A stretch of DNA of 37,174 nt from Oscillospiraceae bacterium (lineage in GTDB: Bacteria > Bacillota > Clostridia > Oscillospirales > CAG-272). The stretch covers positions 1-37,174 of the forward strand of contig SVQL01000006.1 of assembly GCA_015065365.1 (NCBI GenBank), in the 5' to 3' direction. The notes beneath the pieces are model-generated. The model made no database searches and was not told the DNA's origin. It worked only from the letters and a program-made list of their open reading frames with translations. Shown in pieces: positions 24,182 to 25,962 of this stretch. Both the position numbers and the translations under genes were made by a program. Position 1 is the first letter of the stretch. Every line of letters begins with the position of its first letter.

Positions 24182-24315
24182 ATAAGTGCATCATTGTCGT
24201 TAATATATATTAACCGATTTTTATGATTTCGTCAATAGCTTAACGAAAATTTCAAGGCTTTAAACTTATTGTATGCGATTTTTTACCGAAAATAAATATT
24301 TTTTCGAAAAAACTA

Positions 24316-24344
24316 TTGATTTTTTTTTAGACTTATGGTATAAT
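24316..24344 (+). promoter_or_regulatory. Promoter of tRNA-Ser
   Basis: TTGATT 24316-24321, 17-nt spacer, TATAAT 24339-24344, 13 nt before the tRNA 5' end. Confidence 0.8.
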
Positions 24345-24357
24345 GGTCGGGTCGAAT

Positions 24358-24449
24358 GGAGAGATGGCTGAGCTGGTCTAAGGCGCACGATTGGAAATCG
24401 TGTGAACGCTAATACCGTTCCGAGGGTTCGAATCCCTCTCTCTCCGCCA
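24358..24449 (+). tRNA. tRNA-Ser (anticodon GGA), CCA encoded
   Basis: GGAGAGA acceptor pairs with TCTCTCC, long variable arm, anticodon stem-loop CGATTGGAAATCG, T-arm GAGGGTTCGAATCCCTC, 3' GCCA. Confidence 0.96.
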
Positions 24450-24488
24450 AAAGAAGAAACCACCCAATCGGGTGGTTTCTTCTTTTTC
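24449..24488 (+). terminator. Intrinsic terminator abutting the tRNA-Ser 3' end
   Basis: 17-bp perfect stem AAAAGAAGAAACCACCC-AATC-GGGTGGTTTCTTCTTTT plus T tract. Confidence 0.85.
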
Positions 24489-24812
24489 GAACGGCGGAGA
24501 GAGAGGGATTCGAACGCAGTGAGCAAAACAACCTGAATGGTTGTTTTGTGAACGGTGACCGAAGATTTTTGCGAAACATTACCTAAAATCAAATCAAAAA
24601 TGTTGAGCAAAAATCAAGAACGAATCCCGCGCAAAACAAGAACCACCCAATCGGGTGGTTCTTTCTTTTTCCAAACGGCGGAGAGGGAGGGATTCGAACG
24701 CAGTGAGCAAAACAACCTAAATGGTTGTTTTGTGAACGGTGACCGAAGATTTTTGCGAAACATTACCTAAAATCAAATCAAAAATGTTGAGCAAAAATCA
24801 AGAACGAATCCC
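24460..24812. repeat. Two tandem units of about 183 bp (terminator hairpin + antisense tRNA-Ser tail + CAAAACAACC hairpin + AT-rich tail)
   Basis: Copy 1 about 24460-24628, copy 2 about 24643-24812, nearly identical; both contain CGGCGGAGAG(A/G)GAGGGATTCGAACGCAGTGAGCAAAACAACC and end in AAATGTTGAGCAAAAATCAAGAACGAATCCC. Confidence 0.9.
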
Positions 24813-25007: not shown

Positions 25008-25136
25008 GAGCCTCCCTTGTGTAAAGGGAGGTGGCTTGCGAAGCAAGACGGAAGGATTGTAAAAGCAAAAATTTCATCGTAAAACAATCCCTCAGCCGCC
25101 TTCGGCGTCAGCTCCCTTTACACAAGGGAGCCTTGG
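25008..25136. repeat. Palindromic repeat element with CCTCCCTTGTGTAAAGGGAG ends
   Basis: Left GGAGCCTCCCTTGTGTAAAGGGAGGTGGC; right GTCAGCTCCCTTTACACAAGGGAGCC; inner GGATTGT/ACAATCC pair. Confidence 0.85.
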
Positions 25137-25207: not shown

Positions 25208-25258
25208 TTTGTCAAATTATCAAGCTTTATTGACAAATTGAGTAAAATATGGTATAAT
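25208..25258 (+). promoter_or_regulatory. Consensus promoter with an inverted repeat overlapping the -35 element
   Basis: TTGACA 25230-25235, 17-nt spacer, TATAAT 25253-25258; TTTGTCAA (25208-25215) / TTGACAAA (25230-25237). Confidence 0.8.
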
Positions 25259-25263
25259 GTTCA

Positions 25264-25420
25264 TGCTACACAAATTGCATATTTTTAACCGTTGAAGGGA
25301 AAATACTTTGGTAAAAAGTGTTTTCTCTCTTTCCTCATACCTTCAACGGTCGAGCATTTGTGTAGCAACAATGAGAGGGATGCATTTTTTCGGTGCGTAG
25401 CTTCGGTTGCGCACCTTTTT
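25264..25420 (+). ncRNA. Structured 5' leader or small RNA ending in an intrinsic terminator with UUCG tetraloop
   Basis: Nested stems: TGCTACACAAA/TTTGTGTAGCA (25264-25274/25357-25367), ACCGTTGAAGG/CCTTCAACGGT (25288-25298/25340-25350), GAAAATAC/GTGTTTTC (25299-25306/25318-25325); terminator GGTGCGTAGC-TTCG-GTTGCGCACC-TTTTT at 25392-25420. Confidence 0.75.
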
Positions 25421-25440
25421 ATATGATGAGGTGGGAATAT

Positions 25441-25617
25441 ATGAACAATGATGATATATCAAGAGAGATAATAGATATTACCGGCGTAGAACTTACACCC
25501 GGAAAGCCTGACGTTTGTCTTGGCAACGGAGAGCAAGGCTTTGAATGCTGTTGCGACGAATGCGACTACTTTTTGCGTTGTTTCCCCGAATTTGATACAA
25601 CAAGCAAAAAGAATTAA
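25441..25617 (+). CDS. Small Cys-rich protein (58 aa), candidate metal-binding
   Basis: MNNDDISREIIDITGVELTPGKPDVCLGNGEQGFECCCDECDYFLRCFPEFDTTSKKN; RBS GAGGTGG upstream of ATG 25441, downstream of the leader terminator. Confidence 0.65.
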   Translation: MNNDDISREIIDITGVELTPGKPDVCLGNGEQGFECCCDECDYFLRCFPEFDTTSKKN

Positions 25618-25719: not shown

Positions 25720-25747
25720 GCCTCCCTTGTGTAAAGGGAGCCTTGGT
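25720..25747. repeat. Solo hairpin copy of the CCTCCCTTGTGTAAAGGGAG repeat
   Basis: GCCTCCCTTGTGTAAAGGGAGCCTTGGTTT, same core as 25008-25136. Confidence 0.8.
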
Positions 25748-25849
25748 TTTAGTCCCGCTCGAGCGGGTTTACGTAACAAGTGTATGGCTGGCTGTCCAAT
25801 AAAAAGCGCACTTGTGCGCAGCCAGTAGTATTAGGGCTATGCCCGAAAC

Positions 25850-25886
25850 TGAAATATCCCCCCGTTTTACAGGGGGATATTTATTT
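25850..25886. terminator. Terminator-like hairpin in the repeat cluster
   Basis: AAATATCCCCCCGTTTTACAGGGGGATATTTATTTTT. Confidence 0.75.
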
Positions 25887-25935
25887 TTCGAACGACGGAG
25901 AGAGATTCGAACGGTGACCGAAGATTTTTGCCAAA
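25883..25935. repeat. Third, shortened copy of the antisense tRNA-Ser tail repeat
   Basis: TTTTTCGAACGACGGAGAGAGATTCGAACGGTGACCGAAGATTTTTGCCAAAC matches the 24488-24574 unit minus the 38-bp hairpin segment. Confidence 0.8.
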
Positions 25936-25962
25936 CCGCCTCATAGCAACGCCTTAATGCAT

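Follow-up and report, generated by a model that had tools for sequence, protein, structure and literature searches.

A putative transcription-attenuating leader RNA upstream of a small cysteine-rich protein gene and of many unrelated genes in Clostridia

The leader that precedes a 58-aa cysteine-rich ORF in the 37,174-nt stretch of Oscillospiraceae DNA analysed here (the window) is very probably a cis-acting transcription attenuator, and it appears to represent a widespread, hitherto undescribed class. That it would work like a riboswitch is well supported by the sequence comparisons. The original prediction of an undescribed transcription-attenuating leader is thereby strengthened, with no Rfam match, covarying stems, and conservation of both the terminator and the ORF. 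Scans of the leaders with Rfam 15 matched no known ncRNA family, giving nothing at the gathering threshold and only chance-level matches under permissive settings.

The consensus promoter TTGACA-17-TATAAT, the 8-bp inverted repeat on its −35 element, the UUCG terminator with its T5 run, the GAGGTGG ribosome binding site and the 58-aa ORF, all part of the original prediction, are present where it placed them (Table 1). Sequence resembling the inverted repeat lies upstream of many class-A copies of the leader, though not all, and the repeat over the −35 element is a possible operator. Plus-strand promoter-like sites are kept 5′ of the leaders of cysteine-rich ORFs (mean of 1.3 mismatches), and in relatives the terminator is kept between the leader RNA and the start codon.

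Table 1. Features of the leader and its gene (window coordinates)
Feature	Position	Strand	Partner or remark
Inverted repeat TTTGTCAA (25208–25215) / TTGACAAA (25230–25237)	25208–25237	+	Overlaps −35
Sigma-A promoter TTGACA-17-TATAAT	25230–25258	+	−35 25230–25235, −10 25253–25258; perfect consensus
Putative attenuator leader RNA, ~157 nt, class A	25264–25420	+	Covariance models: R2 168.7 bits, R1 59.5 bits
P1 5′ arm	25264–25275	+	Partner 25356–25367; 12 bp; two-sided changes in 7/7 core pairs
P2 5′ arm	25289–25298	+	Partner 25340–25349; 10 bp
P5 5′ arm	25297–25309	+	Partner S; swap test z −14.0
Conserved loop UUUGGUAAAA	25307–25316	+	
Switch strand S	25313–25329	+	Partner P5 5′ arm or antiS; pseudoknot swap z −14.5
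P2 3′ arm	25340–25349	+	Partner 25289–25298; 10 bp
P1 3′ arm	25356–25367	+	Partner 25264–25275; 12 bp; same covariation basis
antiS	25373–25390	+	Predicted partner S (pseudoknot, OFF) or terminator 5′ arm (antiterminator, ON)
Terminator 5′ arm and loop	25391–25409	+	Predicted partner of antiS in antiterminator; swap z −15.1
Intrinsic terminator, UUCG loop and T5	25392–25420	+	Hairpin 25392–25415, T5 25416–25420; −17.7 kcal/mol
Ribosome binding site GAGGTGG	25428–25434	+	
58-aa cysteine-rich protein ORF	25441–25617	+	256 relatives; median dN/dS 0.19

Dispersed intergenic repeats (CTCCCTTGTGTAAAGGGAG; GCGCACTTGTGCGCAGCCAGTAGTATTAGGGCTATGCCC) occupy positions 25010–25135, 25720–25745 and 25785–25890 of the window. 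They are found around further cassette copies as well (L007, L099), and in L007/L077 such a repeat sits between leader and ORF. Repeated intergenic modules resembling tRNA 3′-end fragments (GGATTCGAACGGTGACCGAAGATTTTTGC...) are found at 24555–24800 and 25895–25940, and a tRNA-Ser gene (24358–24449) lies near modules of this kind. Long ORFs in the repeat region (24266–24610 on the minus strand, and neighbours) are probably spurious, because they overlap repeats on both strands.

The region 25240–25440 is predicted to fold at −66.5 kcal/mol (z = −5.7, 0/200 shuffles). Of the three nested stems originally proposed, P1 and P2 stand, with 12 and 10 bp, but the third, described as 8 bp with one G–U pair, is really the stem P5 of ~11–14 bp with several G–U pairs. 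The expected covariation was found: in P1, across 99 relatives, 7/7 core pairs have changed on both sides and 99.7% of the cells are paired, which as comparative evidence is decisive for the stem. P1 and the pseudoknot (PK) together scored 0.281 for covariation, compared to 0.149 when shuffled and at most 0.123 when slid. The conserved unpaired positions are the AUA after P1, GGUAAAA and CAAU, making up a small core with several architectures; at least three architectures occur in the hypervariable sensor domain.

By eye and with RNAalifold, the strand S is complementary both to its 5′ neighbour, giving P5, and to antiS, giving the pseudoknot, while antiS is also complementary to the 5′ arm and loop of the terminator. 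To assess these pairings we used a register-free swap test, which compares the duplex energy of cognate strands with that of strands exchanged between leaders. For 74 leaders of relatives, the z-scores were −10.3 (PK), −8.6 (antiterminator) and −10.1 (P5); for 93 class-wide leaders they were −14.4, −16.1 and −13.0, with −29.5 for P1; and for 79 non-redundant leaders they were −14.5, −15.1 and −14.0 (0/5000). Reversed-sequence controls, which keep the relatedness of the leaders, gave z of only −1.6 to −4.7 in the non-redundant set, with −4.4 for the antiterminator control. In the window itself, the S:antiS duplex reaches −15.9 kcal/mol, a value equalled by 1/2000 shuffles, and the antiterminator hairpin −11.4 kcal/mol. 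Counting antiterminator columns in the fixed register of the window gave a result not above shuffles, because registers shift between leaders, and support for the antiterminator therefore rests on the register-free test. Within A1, the window's own subclass, the antiterminator z is −0.4, the variation there being too low for the swap test. Terminator and antiterminator are mutually exclusive, and both are conserved, the antiterminator by the swap test. The antiterminator of the original prediction, in which GCTAC of the 5′ P1 strand pairs with GTAGC in the terminator arm, was rejected: it is a string match in the window sequence alone and is not conserved (z = −0.1 in the 93 class-wide leaders).

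We propose that transcription from the strong sigma-A promoter yields a leader that P1 closes. Within it, S, behind the GGUAAAA loop, would pair with antiS (the pseudoknot) or else with its 5′ neighbour (P5), and antiS, directly 5′ of the terminator, could alternatively pair with the terminator 5′ arm and loop. Formation of S:antiS would leave the terminator free and the gene OFF; with S held in P5, antiS would be available for the antiterminator and the gene would be ON. A signal acting on the variable P1–P2–P5 domain, whether a small molecule, an ion or a protein, may set the availability of S, and would more likely turn genes ON, by keeping S in the hairpin. Small-molecule binding by the leader is possible, although a hypervariable sensor is unusual for a small-molecule aptamer. 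In stepwise folding of the window leader, P5 forms first, the antiterminator next and the terminator last. Because P5 is strong in class A but weak in class B, copies may differ in their default state. The gene controlled in the window would be that of the small cysteine-rich protein.

The position of the leader relative to genes bears on whether the RNA acts in cis. For 117 of the 138 copies a start codon with a plausible ribosome binding site was found, the median distance 3′ of the leader being 24 nt, and the leader lies directly 5′ of 71 of the 73 relatives of the cysteine-rich ORF having enough upstream sequence. If the terminated 157-nt RNA were itself the product, a trans-acting sRNA with an incidental downstream gene, as the original prediction allowed, then the strong promoter, the compact stable fold and the efficient-looking terminator would all be accounted for, as would the unrelated downstream genes and the host copy L164, which has no obvious gene close behind it. 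However, an sRNA does not need a cognate-specific pairing between antiS and the terminator arm. Given that specificity and the short distance from the terminator to the start codons, we consider this reading unlikely.

The genes behind the leader are diverse. Among 101 downstream proteins, there were 12 BspA-type LRR_5, 5 MazE/AbrB, 4 Cu-amine-oxidase N-domain, 2 SLH and 2 AMP-binding proteins, together with SLOG, GDSL, M23 and LiaF types and many proteins without any family; no common metabolic pathway was seen among the 101. The genes that would be controlled elsewhere are many and unrelated, mostly encoding surface proteins, lipoproteins included, or very small proteins. Two uncharacterised small-protein types recur behind the leader in different genera: a YKxLYFxLFxxVADVIEE family (L185, L188, L190, L203, L215, L217) and a MNIKxELLKxYI-like family (L202, L222, L224, L228, L245, L252). 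The reading first envisaged, of a riboswitch that senses metal or redox state and serves the cysteine-rich protein, would agree with the clustered, conserved cysteines and with the presence, in distant genera too, of homologues of the ORF behind the leader (L212, L213, L247, L256, L259). Such a cassette is nevertheless improbable and finds no support, because the leader is common to many unrelated genes; most of its other targets are LRR, SLH, AbrB and SLOG proteins and lipoproteins, with no metal theme. A metal signal common to the entire class is nevertheless conceivable.

Purifying selection acts on the 58-aa ORF, which is conserved. Over 2740 pairs the median dN/dS is 0.19, and conservation of the cysteines is 99–100%, which together indicate a real protein. 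Its conserved core reads LTPGxPxxCLGNGExGFECCCDECDYxLxCFPEFD. Homologues at 45–80% identity were found in 19 of 98 relatives, with at most four copies each, and 256 relatives came from a scan of named genomes; the 80 kept among them are from Clostridia or Oscillospiraceae MAGs, mainly of herbivore guts; a broader family with two additional cysteine pairs occurs in other Clostridia. The ORF had no match in Pfam, NCBIfam, PHROGs or PADLOC, a PDB profile search with the protein gave at best one marginal and implausible match, and the AlphaFold model was uninformative (mean pLDDT 45). The cassette has no conserved neighbours except common genes. Relatives of the protein without the leader are found on a Monoglobus plasmid (no R2 match) and in G083; leaderless relatives at L031:5569-6390 and L019:1-880 stand in divergent orientation to a small HTH (XRE-type) gene. 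In L014, L018, L046, L066, L072, L074 and L075 the cysteine-rich domain is extended at its C-terminal end by a basic domain (PPPSKRHKIRMNRLFRERVGGSFLPFPEVD...), which in L171 is a stand-alone gene behind a tandem leader; the fused protein had no Pfam match.

Two further readings of the leader were weighed. U-turn (YUNR) loops are a feature of antisense targets, and the UUGG loop resembles them, as would suit an attenuator controlled by an antisense RNA of the pT181/pIP501 type. However, minus-strand promoter matches are no better than shuffled (3.6 versus 3.4 mismatches), and an antisense promoter on that strand was rejected; SD plus ATG occurs in only 5/99 leaders, and a conserved leader-peptide ORF, as for a ribosome-mediated attenuator, was rejected on that count, so that control of either kind is highly improbable. 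A toxin–antitoxin pair of type III layout, with the cysteine-rich protein as toxin and the leader as RNA antitoxin, is scarcely credible: the promoter–RNA–terminator–ORF order, the patchy multi-copy spread and the tandem copies (L087) would suit it, but the same RNA precedes many unrelated genes, the protein has relatives without the leader (Monoglobus plasmid, G083) and no PADLOC or Pfam match, and no RNase of the ToxN/CptN/TenpN type was found behind the RNA with PADLOC, or with Pfam on the protein. Nor are tandem repeats, of which type III antitoxin RNAs are made, evident in the leader sequence.

To describe the spread of the attenuator leader, we used two covariance models, R1 built from class B and R2 from class A. 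With both, the leader RNA was detected in 42 of 59 relatives, exceeding the number that carry the ORF. The genome of the window has about nine copies, four before the cysteine-rich ORF (two of them cut by contig ends) and four before unrelated genes. Among 283 good genomes of the class, 58 had an R2 match, in 40 of 182 genera; these figures are a lower bound because R2 models class A only and the filters were strict. In a phylum-wide sample of about 295 good genomes, R2 had no match apart from G000, and this sample therefore also serves as a false-positive control. Since the same leader stands before unrelated genes in many genomes, its behaviour is that of a transferable regulatory unit. It is also present on two human-faecal phage scaffolds, ahead of genes for a lipoprotein and a zinc-ribbon membrane protein; plasmid searches with the leader DNA found nothing. 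Measured from the ORF, homology among class-A cassettes often begins near −278 and ends around +156 to +310. Mobile-element ends were considered and not adopted, as these edges fall within mosaic-like intergenic repeats, where clear terminal repeats were not seen by eye. Tandem leaders are common (L087, also G010, G001 and G019). In L087 (5077-5978), four leaders follow one another at intervals of ~250 bp and a degenerate ORF start is seen between copies, an array best read as repeated duplication of the cassette.

As to the signal, c-di-GMP is unlikely, because the host genome, with about nine leaders, has no GGDEF domain (none at E 1e-10). The c-di-GMP riboswitch models in Rfam did not match the leader, and about 22 of 61 leader-bearing genomes of the class are not listed with GGDEF (roughly a third, the samples differing by a few genomes). 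The wider proposal, which we hold to be evenly balanced, is that of a riboswitch-like attenuator class specific to Clostridia, present in about one-fifth of sampled genomes with up to about ten or more copies, and combining one three-way switch with several sensor architectures; it would coordinate surface and accessory genes, following a signal that RNA is not yet known to read. If so, a large proportion of gut Clostridia carry an unrecognised RNA class over surface proteins (BspA-type LRR, SLH, lipoproteins) and many small uncharacterised proteins, which would offer a way into gene control in gut bacteria that are mostly uncultured, as well as a target for ligand hunting. A variable sensor on a conserved switch would also be a test of how RNA sensors diversify, and the alignments and covariance models make the class testable at once.

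No description of the leader motif was found in the searchable literature, a scope that leaves out supplements and most subscription papers; large published candidate lists (e.g. PMC8040213) may hold unnamed pieces of the family. Like T-box leaders, the leader points to transcription antitermination in Firmicutes with many targets per genome, but it had no T-box match in the Rfam scans and its targets are not amino-acid genes. The locus shares with ToxIN (type III) the order of promoter, structured RNA, terminator and a gene reached by read-through; unlike ToxIN, it has no ToxN-like protein, and its RNA is common to unrelated genes. Fluoride and ZTP riboswitches have pseudoknot-controlled expression platforms, and there, as proposed here, a pseudoknot helps decide terminator formation; in contrast to them, the leader lacks an Rfam match even at permissive thresholds, its sensor is hypervariable and its downstream genes have no common pathway. 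In the part of the literature accessible to us, the published candidate closest by theme, and conceivably the same motif, is the SLH motif, a transcription-terminating orphan riboswitch candidate with 80 examples in Synergistaceae, Clostridia and Negativicutes, about 60% of which precede SLH genes (Stav et al. 2019, PMC6429828). In Clostridia it too lies 5′ of genes for S-layer and surface proteins, as well as of genes of unknown function. Here, SLH was found in 2/101 downstream proteins and the family is much larger, so that, as far as the accessible part of that report goes, the two are set apart by gene association rather than by structure.
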